Position numbers and translations under genes: made by a program
Assembly: GCA_951640195.1 (NCBI GenBank)
Contig: OX621167.1
Span: 1,054,001-1,118,000 of the forward strand
Direction of reading: 5' to 3'
From: Porpolomopsis calyptriformis
Lineage: Eukaryota > Basidiomycota > Agaricomycetes > Agaricales > Hygrophoraceae
Length of the DNA: 64,000 nt
Shown here: in pieces, positions 6,012 through 26,750 of the stretch
Layout of the letters: every line of letters begins with the position of its first letter
Position numbering within the stretch: position 1 is the first letter of the stretch
The notes under the pieces: model-generated
Database searches by the model: none
What the model saw: only the letters and a program-made list of their open reading frames with translations
What the model was told of the DNA's origin: nothing

Positions 6012-7208
6012 TCTCTCCCAACAATTTCCCACCCAATACGTCTCCCTGCCCAGAAGGGTACAACCTTCTCCTCCCCCAAACTGTAACTATCCGGTACCTT
6101 CACACCCTCTCCTACCCTCCCCAAATTCACAATCTCTCTCTCCTTACCACTCGATAGCTTATAAAACCTTCTTCCGAACGTGCTCACAAACCCCTCCAGC
6201 TTCTCAACCGCACCAAACGTTTCCAATAGCTCCGCCACCAGTGGGAGCAGAATAGCCGACGTGTATATTCCTGCCGCACAGCCATCGGTCGGTGAGCAGG
6301 TTGATTTCCTTTCTGGCGGATGCGGTGCCGAATCGGACCCTAAGAAAAACCGAGGGTGACCTGAAGACGGTGTGAATGAATGAGTTGGAATCCAGCATTC
6401 ACAACTTGCCCTCTTTGATCACGTTCCTTAATGCCTCCCTGTCATCCGGGTACTTTGCCACAGGCTTGCAGTAGTTCCAGCTCTGGCCCGCCCAGTCGTT
6501 CACGGTGAGCGCGAGGTGGTGCGCGGTGATCGTGCACGCCACCGTGGGCCCGCACGCCCTCACGGCGTCGACGGCCGCCCGGGTCGTCGCGTGCTCGAGG
6601 ACGATCCGCAGACGCGGGAAGGCCGCGTGCAGCGCGAGGAGGTGCGGCAGGAAGCGTGGCTCCGCGTTCAGCACGTGCGTGTCCGTGTCCGTGTCCGACA
6701 CCTCGCCGTGCAGGTTGAGCACCATGTCCGCGTCCTGCATCGCACTGAAGATGGGGTAGAACGCCTCGTACGAGTCGACCCCGCTCTCAGAATGGGTGGT
6801 CACTCCCCTTGGGTACGATTTAACCCCTGTCGGGCTCGACTCAGGTTCAGAAGAAAAAGACTTGGGCTATATGACCTAACCCACGATCCCTGCTTTTTTT
6901 GCTTTTTTGATTTCATCAGGGGTGAGTTCGGCGGTGAGATAGAGCGTCATCAGATATTCGACAGTGGGATCTATCGCTTCTAGTTCGGCTTTGTATGCCA
7001 GTGCCTGCTCGGTGGTTGTGATGGGTGGTATCAGATTGGGCTGTGAAGTGTGATGAATGAGTGAGCAAACAGAAAGCTGATAACGAACCATGACATAGGC
7101 AACACCGAACCCCCCTTGTCTGATATGAGGAGTAACGAGCGCTGCCATCGCATTTTGACGGAGATGGACGTGAAAGTCTGCAGGAGATGATATACGAATG
7201 ATCGACAT
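6002..7208 (-). CDS. URA4: Dihydroorotase (class II, monofunctional)
   Basis: Third step of pyrimidine synthesis: cyclisation of carbamoyl-aspartate to dihydroorotate. Exons 7089-7208, 6881-7040, 6410-6826 and 6002-6360 give 351 residues, normal for the class. Zinc ligands are visible: His13 and His15 in DFHVHLRQ; the lysine normally carboxylated (Lys96) in VKSYPRG; His in LNLHGE and in VLEHATT; and Asp in GSDSAPH. Intron 3 (6361-6409) has a GCAAGT donor; the alternative GT four bases on breaks the frame. It is divergent from the Zn2Cys6-array gene, with 47 bp between start codons. Confidence 0.93.
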
Positions 7209-7255
7209 GGATTTCGGAGATCTAAATTAGAGCTCCGACAACTCCCTCAACCGCT
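7209..7255. promoter_or_regulatory. 47-bp divergent promoter, dihydroorotase / Zn2Cys6 array
   Basis: Start codons on opposite strands are 47 bp apart. No clear core element is visible, so one or both promoters must reach into the neighbouring coding sequence. The short gap slightly weakens confidence in the 7256 start. Confidence 0.35.
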
Positions 7256-8349
7256 ATGGACGGCTCAGTCCCGACTTCCGAAAACCCAACGATATGGCCG
7301 AGGAGGGCATCAAAGGTGCCGTGCTCTCTGTTTCAAAAACAAACACAACGTTGACATCAACCAGGCCTGCGCAGGTTGTAGGTAAGCCATGTCGTGGTAT
7401 ATCCTGTGTCCAAATCGAATCTGTCACTTCAGACACGATAAAACACGATGCGACGGGGCGAGGTAAGTCAAGTGCATCGCATCGCATCGCCCGCACACAC
7501 ACACAAACACGACACAGACCCTGCGGCGGCTGCGCGAAAAGGGGGCTCACGGCCGCGCAGTGCGTCGATGGCTGCGATCCCTGCCGGCGTGCTCGCGTCC
7601 GGTGCGAAGACGGGACGCCGTGCAGGCGGTGCCGCCAGATGGCGCTTCATTGCTCGGGCGCCCCCGATCCCGGAGACGCCCCGCAAGACGCTCCTCACCC
7701 TCACGTCCCGGTCTCGGCCCCGCGCAGGTCAGGTGGGAATGAACGTGCCAAGTTGGCTTGTCAGAGCTGTCGCCGGGATAACAAAAAGGTGAGTGATGTA
7801 TTTATGTGTTTTTTTTTTCGTTATTTGATATTTTTTTAGTGTGATGACCAGCGCCCGTGTGCTCGGTGCGTCGCTCGCGAAGAGGCGTGCGTGCATGTCG
7901 GGCGCGAACCCAAACTGGCCATGCTCCGGTGTATGAGATGCAGGCGGGAGAATAGGAAGTGCGAAGAGGCCAGGCCGTGCAGCCATTGTGTCGACAACGG
8001 GAGCGAGTGTGTCAGCTTTGGCAGGCGAGGCGGCAGTCAATGGCCAAGAGTGAAATCGGTCAGTGACCCTCTTTTCTCTCTCAGTCGTGTTTGACTTCTT
8101 TCCAGGCGTGTACCCATTGCAGGCATGCTTTTTTTCATTACGTTATCCTCGTAGTTGACTGTCCTACAGACGTGATAAGATTCGGTGTGACGGTATCAGG
8201 TATGACAAGGTTAATAACTGCGCTCATGGTTGACCCCCACTCCCAGACCGTGCACGGCTTGCATTCGAAAAGGATATGACTGTCGCGACCCGCCTTGTAG
8301 ATCCTGTGTCCAAAAAGGCGACCTAATGGGATGCACACACCAGAAGTAG
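7256..8349 (+). CDS. Tandem array of five Zn2Cys6 clusters, function unknown
   Basis: Exons 7256-7315, 7365-7381, 7433-7462, 7518-7788, 7840-8058, 8106-8122, 8170-8199 and 8247-8349 give 248 residues. Nearly all is C-x2-C-x6-C-x5-C-x2-C-x6-C, the binuclear zinc cluster of fungal Gal4-type factors. Clusters (first to last Cys): 22-51 (last gap x9), 55-81, 117-143, 157-183 and 201-227. Cysteines 217-244 make a sixth, overlapping copy. Each cluster has the usual basic run after Cys2, for example RRARVR, RRENRK, RRDKIR. No coiled coil, middle homology region or activation domain is seen. Clusters 1 and 5 are each split by two phase-2 introns at the same residues, leaving identical 17-nt and 30-nt exons. 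Intron 6 (8123-8169) starts GC. Alternatives: multivalent DNA binder, zinc store, or a gene formed by domain amplification. Confidence 0.72.
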
Positions 8350-8739
8350 TTAATACCTTTGTATACTATATGATAAAATGCATCCGCTTTGACCCATCGC
8401 TTTGTTTGACCATTGTTTTGCCGGCAATTACCGTGACCAGCGGCGGTGGAATGACAAGTCCCCCTCCGACCGCTTTGCTCTCATAAATCTTCTCCACTGA
8501 CCACCAGCTCGTTCAGATCCCGTCTCCCTTCGAGGAATCCCCCCAATTCGTGATTTACGCCGACCACATTATTTCTCACAATTATACAGGCCAACCCCCC
8601 GGTGGCATCCAACTCAGCGAACACCCCAGGCTCGTGGCCAACCCGCGTTCGGAAACAGAAGAAATTGTACGTGTCACCCAAGATTATCCTCGCCTTCTTT
8701 CACTTAAACTTCCTTCAAAACTGTCACCCTTCAGCCAGC
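8350..8739. other. Intergenic / leader of the C2HC gene
   Basis: No family is recognised in these 390 bp. A short plus frame at 8550-8666 is followed by a good donor (GTACGT at 8667) and an acceptor at 8734. This may be a 5' UTR exon and intron of the downstream gene, or an upstream coding exon whose frame I could not settle. Confidence 0.35.
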
Positions 8740-9639
8740 ATGATGACAAGGTAAGCCACCCCCGATTAGTCAGTTCACACCATGGCCCTCACTTCCGGCA
8801 AACGCTCGCTACAGTGCGGGGGGGAATCTCCCCAATGGCTCACAACCTGCTTCTGGGTAAATCCCTTCGAGAACGGTCTTTTTCTTTCTCCCCCCCTCTT
8901 ATATTTCCTCTTCAGCCACGGAGAAGTCGTCCAGACCGCGGCGGAGAAGGCGAGGGAGAAGAGGCTCCGTGACGACCCCATGGCCTACGTGCTTGGCCCC
9001 CTCTTTGTGATCTGTAACCGATGCGGGAGTCGCATCAAGTTGTCTCCGAAGAGCACCTACGACCCGTTTCATTGGCAGAAGCACAAAGAACGATGCCTCA
9101 AAAAGCCGGCCGGCACAGCGAAGCCAAGAGGACGTCTCCCCCGTCATTACACCGTACGTAGTCTCGTGATCGATCCTTTTTATCATACGCTTTCTCAGAT
9201 CGACATCCTCTGTTTTTAGCCCCCTCTGTACAGCAAACATCCCCCGACGGCATCCACCTCCAGGTTCGCCGTCGGCTCTACCGCCTCTTCTTCACGCACA
9301 ACAGATGAAGAAGAGGAGTTTGGGTACAATTGGATGAAGAAGGAATCCCCATCGCCGGGACTGAACGCATCTGCCGCTGCCGCCAAGCTGATCGCCACAC
9401 TCCGACCCCGCGACCTGGCATTCGAGGACTACATGGCCAACTCACACCGCACAACTATTCACGAGATCTATCCTCCCAGTAACTGGCGGTCGTGGTCCTG
9501 GTCCCAGCTGAAACCCGCCGTTTGGGACTTCCACGAGACTGAAATGTATGATGATGACGTGGACACCCAACCCCCTCGTCAACCTCCAGGTGGCACGACC
9601 TCTACCCATCCCCATCGTCAAGAAAATCCACCCTACTAG
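8740..9639 (+). CDS. C2HC zinc-finger protein, uncharacterised
   Basis: Exons 8740-8750, 8815-8856, 8916-9153 and 9220-9639 give 236 residues. A helical Lys/Arg/Glu-rich stretch (AAEKAREKRLRDDP) precedes a finger of the form C-x2-C-x15-H-x3-H-x3-C, seen as CNRCGSRIKLS through HWQKHKERC. This layout recurs in uncharacterised basidiomycete proteins and could bind nucleic acid or another protein. The second half is Ser/Thr/Pro- and acid-rich, probably disordered, with a WRSWSWSQLKP segment. The downstream joins are fixed by frame. The start is not certain: an upstream exon could extend the N-terminus. Confidence 0.6.
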
Positions 9640-10211
9640 CACCGCTGTCTGCGCTCACACGCTTTGCCTCGCTCTCGAGTTGGTATCATATCCCACACTA
9701 CTTGGAATCGAACTAGTCCATACACATACGCGACCTCTTGGGGTATCTGACTGGTTTCCTTTGGATCTAGAGCGCTTCTCATTTACTCTCTGCCTACATA
9801 GTCTGTTTACATAGTATAAATAAATTTGTATTGTAAGTCTGTAGAATTTCCCCGTATTCACCTTTACTTTGTTGTACTAGAACTGTAACATCAAATCCTC
9901 GTCGAGATCAACCGTGCAGAGCTTTAGACAACACCGCCGCTGATAATCCTTGGCGCCAATCCATCTCATAATGCATACCGCAGACTTTAGGAACTGTACT
10001 CATTCTCGTTGATTTCTGAAACGCAGATGTGAATGAGAGCAGGTACATCTGTGGCCACAGAAAACCGGAGAATTGCCTTATATGGGTTAGTCGGCGGCTT
10101 GTCCACCCCGTTACCGTATGGTTACCCCGTGCCTCGAGTTGACCATTTAAACTCGCCACCGATCCTCTCCTTATCGCTGTCAAAGTTTACCCCCACCCGT
10201 GTTTTGCCAAC
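9640..10211. other. Gene-free spacer
   Basis: These 572 bp hold the 3' region of the C2HC gene (AT-rich, with a TAAATAAA-like signal near 9816) and the promoter of the repeat protein downstream. Short frames here have no recognisable content. Confidence 0.5.
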
Positions 10212-12494
10212 ATGGATTCACTGGCAAGTTCTGCTAGCCCCCTCAGTTTTCAACCCTGCTAATGTTGACTGATACCGCCCCACCCCCCAGCCTGCGGATT
10301 TTCGCGTAAAATATGACCAGATGCGTACGGTCATAGACCCTCTCACCCAAAAGTCGGTCACGGACGTTATGGGTGGCTCCTTTTGGGGATTTAAGGAATA
10401 CGAGAACGGCGCTCGCCGATTTAATTTCTCCGAAGGCGATATCGCCTCTTTCGATCATACCAACCGATACCCCATCGTTTGTATTTATGGCCCTCTATTC
10501 AAGCGCTACGTCGAGCTCGGAGGACACGAGAGGAGCGCGCTCGGAAGACCCCTGACTGACGTGCGCGACCTCCCGGACGGCAGTCGATGTGCCGTCTTTG
10601 AAGGCGGCCACCTTCACCAGTGGGCGGACAACGTAGACTGGTCAGTGTGTTTTTTTTTTTTTTTTGATCCGGTCCTTGGGCACCAAACCCTCTTTCCTTT
10701 TTCTCCAGTTTCCCGGCCTCTCAATGCATGGCAACTTGGCAACCACCTCCCCCGCCTTTCGCGTTCGGTATGGGGCCGCATAATATGGTGAGTGCATCGA
10801 AGTATGGTCTCGAACAATTTAATAACCCCCTTCCCATACAGCCCCTTGTATTCCTTTATAAATGGCAGGAGCTTGCTTTAATACGCGATCCTCTTACCGG
10901 TCATACCGTCGGCCAAAAACTCGGCCCTATCGACTACGATGTGAGTAATATCGACGTCGGAGGACAGCGAATCGTGTTCTCCGGAGGGGAAATCGTCGTT
11001 CATGACAACAGAGGTTTCGGAGTCTACGGCCCAATATTCAAGTATTGGACTGGTGTCAACGGAGGATGGGGTCGTCCTATGACTGATGAACAAGAGCTGC
11101 AAGACGGTGGCCGCTGTCAGGTATTCGAAGGCGGACATATTCATCGATATGGTGACACCGCTGGACCGTGAGTCTTTTGAGTAGTTCCCCTCTTTTTATT
11201 ACTTCACATCCCTTGGACAGTGTCCCCCCGGAAAGATGTACTGCTAGATTTAGGCCGCTGCCAAGGCCTGGCCTGGCTTTCAATAGGATGGTGAGTTGCG
11301 AAATTCTTTCACGTTTTCTTTCTTTCTCTCGCTACATTTACGCTTGGCTTTTCTTCTGTATTTACTCGATCACAACAGAACCCTTTCTATCAATATAAAT
11401 GGAGCCAACTTCTCCTCGTGAATAAGCCAGACAATCAAAAACCCATTGCTTTAGGTACTGAATCCCCCCCCTCCTCTCATAAACTAAGCTGACGACTCTT
11501 TGCATGAAAGAACTGGGAGATCTCGACTGTTTCCATGAAAAATGGAACGGCAACAAGCCCGGACACTACTTCACCTTCAGCAATGGACTTCTTGGCAGTC
11601 ATACGCATGACATGCGTCCTGCTCCACCGGGCACACCCCTGGAACTTATGGCGCCGTTTGCCGTGTACGGCGGCATTTTCAGGTTCTGGTGGGACGCTGG
11701 CGGGTCTGACTCGAAATACGGTAGACCAATCTGTGACCAGCAAGGTTTGCCAGACGGTGGACGCTGTAATATTTTTGAGGGCGGGCATATTCATTTCTAC
11801 AACGGGGAGTCCCGAGAGTGAGTGCCATCCGTAGTGCATCTTTATTTTTTTTAAATGCTTCCCCCCCGTTTCCAGATTCCCTGCGCACGATTGTAAAGCA
11901 CCCTACCAGCCCCGGCCTCCCCGTGACACGTTACCCACTATGCCCAATCAACCATTCCTCCAGGGTCAGTCCCCGGAAGCATACTACCCTCCCTCGTCTG
12001 CCCCCGAAGGATTTGGCTCGTCTCCGCATCATCTTCCGACCGGAGGAGTATTTGGGTCATCTCCAGTTCATCTTCCGACCGGAGGAGGATTTGGGTCATC
12101 CCCTCTTCATCATCTTCCGACGTCTGTTCCTGGAGGATTTGGGGCGCACCTTCCGCACATGAACCTGCCATCTTTCTCTGACTCTCGGCCCCCTCAACCT
12201 GATGAGAATTCTTATAATGGCTATCAACCCCCACCTCAGCCTGACATGATCTTTCAACCGGCCCAACCTCCCGAACCAGCCGAAATAAACTACCCCCAGC
12301 CGCCCTTCCAACAACCGGTGGCAGACGGGCAGGGCTTCTCTATGCCTTTCTCCAACGCGAACAACGAGACATCTGGAGGGAAACCTCTCGGATTGATCGC
12401 AGCGCTGATCTTTGGAATAATCGGATACAATATTGAGAAGGATTGTAAGGGGGATGATGATGATGGCGGTTGCTGCTGCTGCTGCTGCTGTTGA
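10212..12494 (+). CDS. Triple LGFP-like repeat protein with TM and Cys7 tail
   Basis: Exons 10212-10223, 10291-10640, 10709-10787, 10842-11167, 11221-11290, 11379-11454, 11511-11817 and 11876-12494 give 612 residues. Three homologous modules lie at about 5-121, 148-256 and 280-407. Each opens with an aromatic Y-K-W or K-Y-D segment and a D-P-L-T turn, and ends in a unit like GRPLTDVRDLPDGSRCAVFE followed by GGH(L/I)H, resembling LGFP repeats. Linkers carry Cys and Pro-rich runs. Residues 408-575 are Pro/Gly-rich with three FGSSPxHLPTGG-type copies. A hydrophobic helix (PLGLIAALIFGIIGYNI), four Asp and seven terminal Cys follow. A phase-0 intron precedes each module, suggesting exon-wise duplication. 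The 12-nt first exon uses a GCAAGT donor; Met at 10321 is an alternative start. No enzymatic site is seen; a surface or membrane-anchored binding protein is inferred. Confidence 0.65.
12471..12491 (+). repeat. (TGC)n tract coding the Cys7 C-terminus
   Basis: Six TGC codons and one TGT directly precede the stop TGA, encoding seven consecutive cysteines. Triplet slippage would change the number of cysteines without changing frame. Confidence 0.85.
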
Positions 12495-12871
12495 TCTGTT
12501 CTCAGGAAAGGACTGGACAAAAAAATTTCGGATATCGATATTATGCACCATCTCATTTTGGGTCTAGTTTCGTTTGAGCTATATATATAAGTTTGGCCGG
12601 TCATCAACACAGTACTCAAAAAGATTGCCCGAATTGTTGAGCTGTGCATCTGTCAAAGACATATCGGTAACATCTCCGGGAACTGGACAACGGGGGTGGA
12701 AAGTCATGTCAATCGATCAGTCTCGTCTGTCTTGCTCAAGTTGATTCCTGGCCTTGACAACGATTATACTGGTTGAGGAGCCATACAACAGACGGAGATC
12801 CCCGCAAATTGGTGAACAGGCCAGTGTGCATTGCTGGCTCGGCTGGATATAAAATATCTGTACCGTCTAAT
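12495..12871. other. Convergent 3' region
   Basis: These 377 bp lie between the stops of the repeat protein (plus) and dolichyldiphosphatase (minus). No gene is seen; they should contain both 3' UTRs. Confidence 0.5.
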
Positions 12872-13801
12872 TTAAGAATGCCGTTTAGCGCTCGTGGAGC
12901 CCCGTGCGTCGAGCTCAGCCCTCCACCGTTTCCATTCTTGCTCGTGGCCTCCATCTGGCCATAGGAGCCAGCCATCGCGTATGCGCAGCCACGTAGAGAT
13001 GGGATTGGTTAGCACGAAGGTGCGTAGGCGTCCGAGAGGGGAGTCAGGTCGGACGGCAGGAATCAGCTCCGAGATAACATAAAAGGAAGTTCCGAAGGCT
13101 GTGCCGATAGCTAGTCCCCAAAGGACTTGGTGCGGCGTGTGATAGGTGAGATGAAATCTAGGTGTTATAAAGTTTGTCGGGGAAACTTTTCATTGGACGG
13201 ATATTGAGGTGAAAGTTTACCGAGAGTATGCGACGGCGGCTGCCCATCCTGTTATGAGGAGGTACAATACTGTCCTGAATATTCTGTCAAGGACCGGAAA
13301 CCCGGTTGTCGGGAGTCGATGGCGGAAATAGAGATGACAGACGAGGAAGGAGGAGAAGAAGCCCATGTACTGACTGTGTGAGGAGGGGAAACCGTAGCCA
13401 TTGAGGCTATCTAGGGAGGGGGGAGGTAAGCGAGGCTCAGGAAGTAAACGGGTATCAGACGCACCTGTCGGTCGATCTTGCTTGATTGCTCGCTTGAGGA
13501 CCCAATTGAAGGCTTCACAAAGAAACTGGCCGGCCCACATGTTGATAATGACCAGCTCCCTGGTTTGCACCGCAAGCGCGGCATAGGCCGGCTTTGTGGG
13601 TTGGGGTGAATTGGGCAGTGCTTGTGTTGACGATGGGTGACACGCACCATGAGGAGGATCGGGCTAAGGGTGACCAATGCGAGTACGAAAGAGAGAAGAG
13701 AGGACTGGTCATCTGGGTGTGTGAGCGACAGCCATCGAGCTTGGAAACGGCTTACAATGGACTTGGGTGAGATCCAGCGTGGCCGAAGACGTCCCTGGCA
13801 T
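12872..13801 (-). CDS. CAX4: Dolichyldiphosphatase (PAP2 family)
   Basis: ER-membrane phosphatase that hydrolyses dolichyl diphosphate on the lumenal side, recycling the N-glycosylation lipid carrier. Exons 13756-13801, 13648-13712, 13465-13591, 13221-13410 and 12872-13157 give 237 residues, the expected size. All three PAP2 motifs are present: KRAIKQDRP (K-x6-R-P), PSSHSQ, and SRFHLTYHTPHQV (S-R-x5-H-x3-Q-V). Hydrophobic segments around LLSFVLALVTLSPILLM, VLYLLITGWAAAVAY and VLWGLAIGTAFG fit a four-to-five-span membrane protein. The start ATG at 13801 follows from the conserved N-terminal segment before the first intron. Gene symbol by homology to yeast CAX4/CWH8. Confidence 0.93.
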
Positions 13802-17877: not shown

Positions 17878-19193
17878 TTACGACACGAGGGACTTGGGTA
17901 TGCCATCAACTCCCAACAAGGACTCCTCCGGACCCAGCACTCTCGGACCGTCACCGACGCAAGTGTGAATGAGACCTTTGACTGCACCAACACCAAACCT
18001 CTTCGCTACCCCTTCATTAAAGTTATCCACAAGCGCTCCTCCACCCATTGCCGCACCTCCATAAAGGCCAAACGGGTCCTTGAATGGTTCAGCCTGCGGG
18101 AAATATCTGACAATCATATCGACGATTTGACGAATATCCTCCTTGAGCGCATAGATGACGGCATTCGGCCCAGCGTCGAACGTGTACGCCGCCTTGACCT
18201 TCCCTCCTTTCTCGACAGAGACACGATTGTACTCTACGACCAACGCGACGATCGCTCGGCTCACGTCATTCATATAAAAAATCGGCGGGTCGGTGTCGAG
18301 CGCGACGGCGTGGAACTGGTTCGAATCCTGCATCGTTATCCGGGCGAACGTGTCAAAGTCGCGGGCGAGGATGGCGGCAGAGATGGCCTGCATGCGTGCG
18401 GGGACGACGTGGGCGATGCGGTGCTGGAGAAGGGTGGAAGTCTGGACGGTGCGTTGCATGCCTGCGGTGGAGGACGTGCCCTTTTTGTCGTCTGAGACGA
18501 CACAGATGAGGGCGTGCATGTCGGGCCAGTGCTCGCGCGGGGCGACTTGCACGGCGAGGGAATCGGAGCCGTCCGGGGATGTGCCTTCTTGCCAGGCGAC
18601 GAAGCCGCCGAGGAGGGATCGACAGGCGGAACCGGAGCCTTGACGGGCGATAAGGGATAGGGCCGAGGGGGAGATAGGAAGGGCGTAAAGGGCTGCTAGG
18701 GAGGCTGCCAGGGCTGCGAAGCCAGAGGCAGAAGATGCAAGGCCTGCGGCGGTTGGGAAGTTGTTATGTGAGCATATGTGCACGGGAAACGTGGACAACT
18801 AACGAAGGGCATGAATTAGGATCGTATCGAGAATGAAGGACGGCGTACTTTGGGTTCGTCGGGATTCTGCTGTTCGACTTGTTTTCGCAACCGTTTCATT
18901 TCGGTGATACAGGTAGCCATCCGGCCACCATGCTTGATGACCTCTTCGTTTCCATTAAGCCAAAGCGTATCTTGGTTGAAAGAAGGATCTGCGCGAGATG
19001 TTGTTACGGATCGGAGGTGATCCTGGTCAAGGGTGACGGAGAGAGAGGAGTTGGTTGGAAGAATGAGTTTTGTGTCTCGTTTCCCCCAGTATCTGATTAA
19101 AGATGTCAAGGATGGATTGGCCAGGATTTGACATCCTCACTTGATACACGCGATATTGACCGGTGCAGAAGCTGTGGCTTGAAAGACAGACAT
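17878..19193 (-). CDS. MVD1: Diphosphomevalonate decarboxylase
   Basis: Last step of the mevalonate pathway, converting mevalonate diphosphate to isopentenyl diphosphate with ATP. Exons 19141-19193, 18849-19092 and 17878-18798 give 405 residues, as expected for a GHMP kinase-fold decarboxylase. Signatures are APVNIACIKYWGKRDTKL at the N-terminus, TNSSLSVTL, the ATP loop NNFPTAAGLASSASGFAALA, RQGSGSACRSLLGGFV, and FDAGPNAVIY near the C-terminus. The ATG at 19193 gives the family's short lead before APVNIA. It is divergent from the VPS9 gene with 96 bp between start codons. HMG-CoA synthase lies 6 kb away on the same strand. Confidence 0.95.
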
Positions 19194-25086: not shown

Positions 25087-25126
25087 GCATGTATAGTTTC
25101 TATGTGAGAATGATATCTAACTGTTA

Positions 25127-26750
25127 TTACGCCTCGAGTGGCGCTCTGGAATACGTCCGCCTGTGCTTGTGGTCAACACTTTCGAGATAGTAGGCGCCTG
25201 GCCAGATATCGTCAATAGATCCTGAGGGTACGTACGACGCCGCATTGTGGTTCTTCTCTCGGAGCTAAAGAAACCGGCACGGATCAACACAATGGACTTT
25301 TTTGTTTCGTCTTTTTGTTTACTCACCGCTAAAGCATCGACAAATTCCTGACAAGGGACGACTTTCATGCTCGCCAATCGATCGAGCAGGTTCATTCTCT
25401 CTCGTATCTCGGTCGTATCCCCTTTGATGCGGAGTGTGAAGAAGCTCGAGGCACATCCGCTCCCGAACGCGAACAGGCTCACACGCTTGCCCTTGAGGTG
25501 GGTAGGCTCGACGGAGGACACGAGCGAGGCGAGACAGCCATAGAGGGAGGCAGTGTACATGTTACCGAGACGGCGGGAGCAGGCCATGGAGGGTTCTACT
25601 TGCTTGGCGAAACCGGACTTGGCGGCGGCGATAAACGTCTTTTCGAGTGCCTTGTCCGTCAGAGAGGATGAATAGGGCATGGAGAGGATGGCGTCTCGGT
25701 TGGGAATGTTGGCGAAACGGGGGGCGTCGGGAGCAGAAAGAAAGTCGTTGTACATGAGACGAGCGTGTGCCTTTACGGTTTGCTTCCCGTACGGACTGTG
25801 GAAGATGGCGTAATCGACGGCTTCAAGGGAGAAGGCTGCTTTCACATCATCCAGCTTGTGATCGTGGCCATTTATACCATTTGGGGAAGTGCCATTTAAG
25901 GTAGTGACCCGTTTCGCGATCTTTTCTCTGAAGCGGGAGTAGGCAGCATCGAGTGCGGTGACATAGGTCACTACTGACAGCGGACCATCGACTTGGGGGT
26001 ATTCCGAGGACAGCTGGGGTTTGTAGAAATCATATGTGTTGGCCATATAATTACCGTGGATGGCTAAAAAAAGGTCAGTGGGGGGGGGTGAAGGAAAAGT
26101 AGGGTACTTGCGTTCAAATAGGATCGGAGCGTTTGGGCCTATGAGCAAGGCGCAGGCGCCGGCGCCACCAGCCGGCCGGGCATTACCCTCGGCATAAATG
26201 GCGATATCGGCGGAGACCACGATGGCGTTTCGGCCGTCCCAAGATGAGGACTCGACCCAGTTGATGGCGTTGAAGAGGGCGGCGGTGGAGCCATAACACG
26301 CGTTTTTTGAGTCGACTCCCTCAATGTCAAAGTTGCGAGAGGGAGCGAAAAGATCCATTAGGGTGGTCTTGACGGACTTTGATTTATCGATAATGGTCTC
26401 TGTGCCGAGGTCGATGCGGCCGATAGAGGCGGGGTCAATGTTGTATTTTTCGAGAAGACCGGAGACGGCTGGCGGGGTGATGAGTACGAAGAAGGTTAAG
26501 GAGGGATAAAAGTACCGTTCAACGCGAAGGAATTGATGTCCTCGCGATCGTCGCAGCAGGCCATGTATTCCTGGCCGAGACCGATGGTGTATTTACCGGA
26601 TGGAACATGGTCATACTGCTCGAGATCGGCTTCTGAAATGCACTGATAACGGAAAGCATGTGAGAGGGAAATACGAGAGAAGAAAAGAGGGCATACTCTG
26701 CGAGGAAAGTACGTTTCGATAGCGAGGATACCAACGTCGAGCGGGGACAT
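25127..26750 (-). CDS. ERG13: Hydroxymethylglutaryl-CoA synthase
   Basis: Condenses acetyl-CoA and acetoacetyl-CoA to HMG-CoA, the entry to the mevalonate pathway; cytosolic. Exons 26697-26750, 26516-26642, 26112-26468, 25327-26063 and 25127-25264 give 470 residues, the typical size. The active-site cysteine is Cys118 in DSKNACYGSTAALFNA. Other signatures are GLGQEYMACCDDREDINS, GRNAIVVSADIA, HGNYMANTYDFYKP, YAIFHSPYGKQTVKAHARL and GSGCASSFF. The third intron (26064-26111) has a GCAAGT donor; the nearby GT would break the conserved EPIHGNYM. The stop TAA is followed at once by a second TAA. Confidence 0.96.

Follow-up and report, generated by a model that had tools for sequence, protein, structure and literature searches.

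A 64,000-nucleotide (nt) stretch of the Porpolomopsis calyptriformis genome (contig OX621167.1), here called the window, contains at positions 7256-8349 of the forward strand a predicted gene for a protein with five complete Zn2Cys6 clusters on one chain. Zn2Cys6 factors are a very large class of fungal regulators and, to our knowledge, are understood as carrying a single cluster per chain. The conservation of a five-cluster chain over several orders of the mushroom class raises the question of whether DNA reading by arrays is also within reach of the Zn2Cys6 fold. With moderate confidence we propose a nuclear protein that uses several of its clusters together to bind DNA, the third of them Pho7-like; that it is nuclear, takes up zinc and binds DNA multivalently, and in which direction it regulates, we infer from the comparisons below.

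In agreement with the tandem array described in the first-pass annotation, which was made from the bare sequence, the protein contains five complete C-x2-C-x6-C-x5-C-x2-C-x6/9-C clusters, beginning at residues 22, 55, 117, 157 and 201. The Pfam profile PF00172 matches in five stretches (E 1.7e-33; score 114.8 bits, curated cut-off 21). It is the sole Pfam family that matched the window protein at E ≤ 1. When its residues were shuffled 100,000 times, a single cluster arose in 289 cases and more than one in none.

The five-cluster family and the gene model

A search with the single sequence gave 88 matches and a profile search 147, of which 120 were listed; together they list 131 distinct matches. 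The closest relative, P0001 from Infundibulicybe gibba, is 60% identical across 99% of the window protein. Among the 131 listed matches, five complete clusters are found in 44, four in 26, three in 12, two in 9, one in 39 and none in 1, and many of the short matches look unspliced or partial. A fragment of an ordinary single-cluster factor, for which the homologues were checked, is thereby ruled out: the relatives align over approximately the full length at ~60% identity, and 44 of the 131 carry all five clusters. In the genome of P. calyptriformis itself (33.5 Mb, 17 contigs) a protein search matched only the 7256-8349 locus. Three PF00172 matches within ~3 kb on another contig (C10:1025500-1033500, L009) were considered as a second tandem gene and rejected, as each occupies a frame of its own and none of these frames has more than one cluster; they represent ordinary neighbouring zinc-cluster genes or exons.

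All 67 named hosts among the listed profile matches are Agaricomycetes; the three that were looked up belong to Sistotremastrales, Hymenochaetales and Jaapiales. No name of the Polyporales was recognised among these 67, which come from a length-limited, gene-model-dependent list of 120 of the 147 matches. The spread of the five-cluster family over orders suggests that it originated early in the Agaricomycetes. In the databases the relatives are named as hypothetical proteins, some as 'Transcription activator of gluco...' (the UniRef name is cut off), a gluconeogenesis label that looks automatic. Full-text literature searches, with a scope of papers outside subscription and preprints, found no description of five-cluster arrays, and passages of PMC10141177, PMC8396895, PMC10017718, PMC12421882 and PMC4192604 have no bearing on them. 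The earlier statement that no described family is known agrees with these searches, although the proteins themselves are already deposited; the Zn2Cys6 domain is known, and it is the conserved five-cluster chain that is apparently undescribed.

The gene model comprises eight exons of 60, 17, 30, 271, 219, 17, 30 and 103 nt, which splice to 747 nt and encode 248 residues, 33 of them cysteines. Between them lie seven introns of 47-55 nt, six with GT-AG and one (8123-8169) with GC-AG borders. PF00172 matches lie within exon 4 (C5:1061570-1061668, window 7570-7668) and within exon 5 (C5:1061930-1062019, window 7930-8019). The modelled start, MDGSVPTSENPTIWPRRASKACAGC, agrees with the family N-terminus, whose start context is MDxx..WPRRAxKACAxC; the form M...W(P/R)(R/K)R...AC..C is present in 42 of the 131 listed matches. 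Furthermore, many listed matches leave the family sequence at the places of the window introns: after DNKK in 35 of the 131, after RVK(A/T) in 16, and after DGxR, in either cluster 1 or cluster 5, in 10. Five (P0024, P0034, P0040, P0116 and P0130) do so behind the ACxxCR of cluster 5; P0098 was excluded because its pattern match sits in cluster 3. Most, though not all, of these departures are intron read-through, and a few (such as P0040 and P0064) resemble skipped exons. Some matches are probably spliced transcripts: P0015, for instance, has 358 residues, and its contig of only 1193 nt would be too short for seven such introns. The relatives lend the predicted eight-exon model independent support.

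It also follows that a number of publicly available models of these genes depart from the true sequence at short exons or introns; P0018, P0024, P0034, P0056, P0059 and others show intron read-through or breaks at the 17- and 30-nt exons.

Conservation of linkers, clusters and the C-terminal region

Figures for spacing, charge and the C-terminal appendage refer to 33 five-cluster relatives extracted with a greedy cysteine pattern, plus the window protein where stated (a lazy pattern gives the 44 of 131). In the window protein, successive clusters are separated by 3, 35, 13 and 17 residues, which is the arrangement that defines the family (3, variable, 13, 17). Linker 1-2 measures 3 residues in all 34 proteins including the window protein and linker 2-3 is variable among them, while linker 3-4 measures 13 in 32 of 34 (15 in P0048, 16 in P0109) and linker 4-5 measures 17 in 31 of 34, the exceptions being P0011, P0094 and P0018; in P0018 a stretch of read-through is present. 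Both long conserved linkers are basic, with mean net charges of +4.1 (linker 3-4) and +4.7 (linker 4-5) in the 33 relatives and of +2 and +4 in the window protein. In an alignment of 44 fuller matches (A3), 28 cluster cysteines are invariant together with 18 other residues, 10 of which are arginine or lysine. It weighs against our interpretation that the cysteine conservation arises partly by construction, as the 33 relatives were chosen by their cysteine pattern; the linker lengths are unaffected by this.

Over the non-cysteine core columns, the same cluster is 0.65, 0.61, 0.75, 0.48 and 0.55 identical across orthologues for clusters 1 to 5, while different clusters reach 0.24-0.51, below the same-cluster value in each case; these figures compare clusters of five-cluster proteins with one another. 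For cluster 5 the margin is small (0.55 with its own counterpart, 0.51 with cluster 1). Within proteins, clusters 1 and 5 form the most similar pair (identity 0.53), and this likeness, together with their common 17- and 30-nt exons, suggests that a single exon module was duplicated long ago.

The first-pass annotation had further proposed a sixth cluster formed by C217, C220, C227, C232, C235 and C244. The cysteines from C217 to C244 do fit the cluster spacing, but C217, C220 and C227 are also ligands of cluster 5, and the arrangement is not conserved across the family. The 10 of 33 relatives that lack the spacing include P0023, P0025, P0029 and P0033, which we take to be Russulales, and the incomplete model P0018; cysteines at other spacings are present in P0026 and P0109. 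The appendage is probably an optional copy of cluster 2, perhaps a degenerate one.

Past cluster 5 the window protein extends for 21 residues, whereas 42 of the 44 five-cluster relatives extend for 54-172; the exceptions are P0018 (partial) and P0104 (38 residues). Many of these tails share a YYPVIDPxID..NISSERY motif, and in the structure model of P0001 the tail is mostly below 50 in predicted local distance difference test (pLDDT) score. A profile of 51 relatives' tails, searched against window positions 7000-13000 for a hidden tail exon, returned only exon 8 itself above inclusion. The claim that the protein consists of clusters and short linkers alone therefore describes the window copy correctly but is atypical of the family, in which the tail is common, variable and hence non-defining. 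We consider it distinctly unlikely that the window copy is a decaying gene of a family that is itself functional: the GC-AG intron, the missing tail and the diverged linkers would fit such a fate, but the copy has retained the cluster cysteines, the start context, an uninterrupted reading frame and its intron places.

Comparison with known factors and proposed function

Against the Protein Data Bank (PDB), the family profile matched Pho7 of Schizosaccharomyces pombe at E 1.1e-11 and 1.5e-11 (entries 6e33 and 6o19, both Pho7-DNA complexes), spanning cluster 3 and the following linker. Pho7 recognises a 12-nt motif that is asymmetric, and the authors of that work raise binding as a monomer (PMC5559640). 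Cluster 3 and its linker share with Pho7 the core ACxxCxxDNKKCDDxRPCxRC, and Pho7 is the top match by sequence, profile and structure; the Pho7 DNA-binding domain has a single cluster, however, and the window protein five. No strong match to the whole five-cluster array was found in structure searches. In the P0001 model each cluster forms two short helices, in blocks mostly at 77-94 pLDDT.

Factors of the Gal4, Put3, Hap1 and Leu3 type carry one cluster, usually together with a coil that mediates dimerisation and with a fungal_trans domain. They share the PF00172 profile and the pattern of helices with the five-cluster proteins and gave weak matches by profile or structure, but no Pfam match to fungal_trans (the middle homology domain) was found in the window protein or in the 44 aligned relatives. 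ERT1 combines a single cluster with a PAS domain; ERT1/AcuK is apparently what the gluconeogenesis label of some relatives refers to, yet there is no PAS match in the window protein or the 44. The closest counterparts are the Agaricomycete five-cluster proteins such as P0001, with five clusters, near-identical spacing and common intron places, from most of which the window copy differs by its absent C-terminal tail.

Of the residues contacting DNA, Lys17 and Lys18 of Gal4 touch the CGG triplet. The equivalent of position 18 is lysine in cluster 1 (34 of 34) and cluster 5 (33 of 33) and arginine in cluster 2 (32 of 33), while it is asparagine in cluster 3 (34 of 34) and cluster 4 (31 of 33). 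That every cluster keeps its basic contact residues, as had been claimed, thus holds at this position for clusters 1, 2 and 5 but not for 3 and 4. In the alignment Pho7 likewise has asparagine at this position, and since Pho7 binds DNA, asparagine is not incompatible with binding.

Three functions had been suggested for the protein: multivalent reading of repeated CGG-type sites, zinc buffering, and a role as decoy or dimer partner. Multivalent DNA reading is the best supported, because of the five PF00172 stretches, the near-fixed basic linkers, the invariant arginines and lysines, the similarity to Pho7 and the modelled helices. The folded part would be an array of five Zn2Cys6 clusters holding about ten zinc ions if all load. 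Cluster 3, together with the basic linker behind it, would read DNA as a monomer in the manner of Pho7, while clusters 1-2, 4 and 5 may contact additional CGG-like triplets or the backbone, so that a long composite site could be recognised with no need for dimerisation. In most relatives the disordered tail may recruit the transcription machinery. Only tentatively do we suggest that this is the first described zinc-cluster factor acting as a covalent array, with five clusters reading a long composite DNA element and an origin early in the Agaricomycetes; such reading by a single chain would be comparable to that of C2H2 finger arrays, as opposed to monomers or dimers of single clusters. The five-cluster proteins also constitute a defined family for removal in model mushrooms; Pleurotus is among the genera that have members of it.

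A metallothionein-type zinc store or buffer is disfavoured and appears very improbable. Cysteine does make up 13.3% of the window protein (33 of 248), but the Zn2Cys6 spacing, the near-fixed basic linkers, the invariant non-cysteine residues and the similarity to Pho7 are at odds with such a role, and no metallothionein Pfam match was found in the window protein or the 44 aligned relatives. Binding of RNA or proteins instead of specific DNA, for example in chromatin complexes, is very unlikely as well; weaker profile matches to RSC3 and a CBF3 subunit, Zn2Cys6 proteins of large complexes, speak for it, but the strongest matches are to DNA-bound Pho7.

The array might also serve mainly as a competitor, partner or repressor that occupies CGG-type sites or pairs with other zinc-cluster factors without activating, a role that would apply especially to the tail-less window copy. 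Consistent with this, none of the 44 aligned members has a regulatory-domain Pfam match, the sole additional match being a marginal Extensin_1. We regard it as unlikely, as 42 of the 44 five-cluster relatives extend at least 54 residues past cluster 5, many with a YYPVIDPxID-type motif. Within the preferred reading of a multivalent DNA-binding protein, the window copy, lacking the tail, may repress or compete rather than activate.

Feature coordinates and neighbouring genes

Table 1. Exons, zinc clusters and other features of the five-cluster gene, in window positions.
Feature	Position	Strand	Remarks
Exon 1	7256..7315	+	Start codon, N-terminus MDGSVPTSENPTIWPRRASK; agrees with the relatives' WPRRAxK N-terminus
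Exon 2, 17 nt	7365..7381	+	Cluster 1, first CxxC; equal in length to exon 6
Exon 3, 30 nt	7433..7462	+	Cluster 1, portion with helix 1; equal in length to exon 7
Exon 4	7518..7788	+	What remains of cluster 1, then cluster 2, the linker and the beginning of cluster 3
Exon 5	7840..8058	+	Remainder of cluster 3, cluster 4, linker 4-5
Exon 6, 17 nt	8106..8122	+	First CxxC of cluster 5
Intron 6, non-canonical GC-AG	8123..8169	+	Five relatives depart from the family sequence here
Exon 7, 30 nt	8170..8199	+	Helix-1 part of cluster 5
Exon 8	8247..8349	+	End of cluster 5, then the Cys-rich appendage at the C-terminus and the stop codon
Zinc cluster 1, residues 22-51	7368..7563	+	Split across exons 2-4
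Zinc cluster 2, residues 55-81	7573..7653	+	Begins three residues past cluster 1
Zinc cluster 3, residues 117-143	7759..7890	+	Pho7-like DNKKC; most conserved; split by intron 4
Zinc cluster 4, residues 157-183	7930..8010	+	
Zinc cluster 5, residues 201-227	8109..8283	+	Exons 6-8; most similar to cluster 1
Appendage with C232, C235, C244	8296..8334	+	Proposed 'sixth cluster'; its spacing is shared by 23 of the 33 five-cluster relatives

Head to head with the zinc-cluster gene lie open frames at 6402-7226 on the reverse strand, the nearer one ending 30 bases short of that gene's start codon. We take them to resemble dihydroorotase; the part at 6402-6866 has an Amidohydro_2 match below the cut-off and that at 6879-7226 no Pfam match. 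Downstream of the gene, open frames at 8770-9636 (+) contain a CNRCGSRIKLSPKSTYDPFHWQKHKERC stretch and have no Pfam match. Farther away, the window holds a pair of mevalonate-pathway genes on the reverse strand, a diphosphomevalonate decarboxylase (17881-18798) and an HMG-CoA synthase (25117-26592) separated by ~6.3 kb; the best matches of the latter, from Hohenbuehelia, Collybia, Amanita and others, are 70-74% identical.
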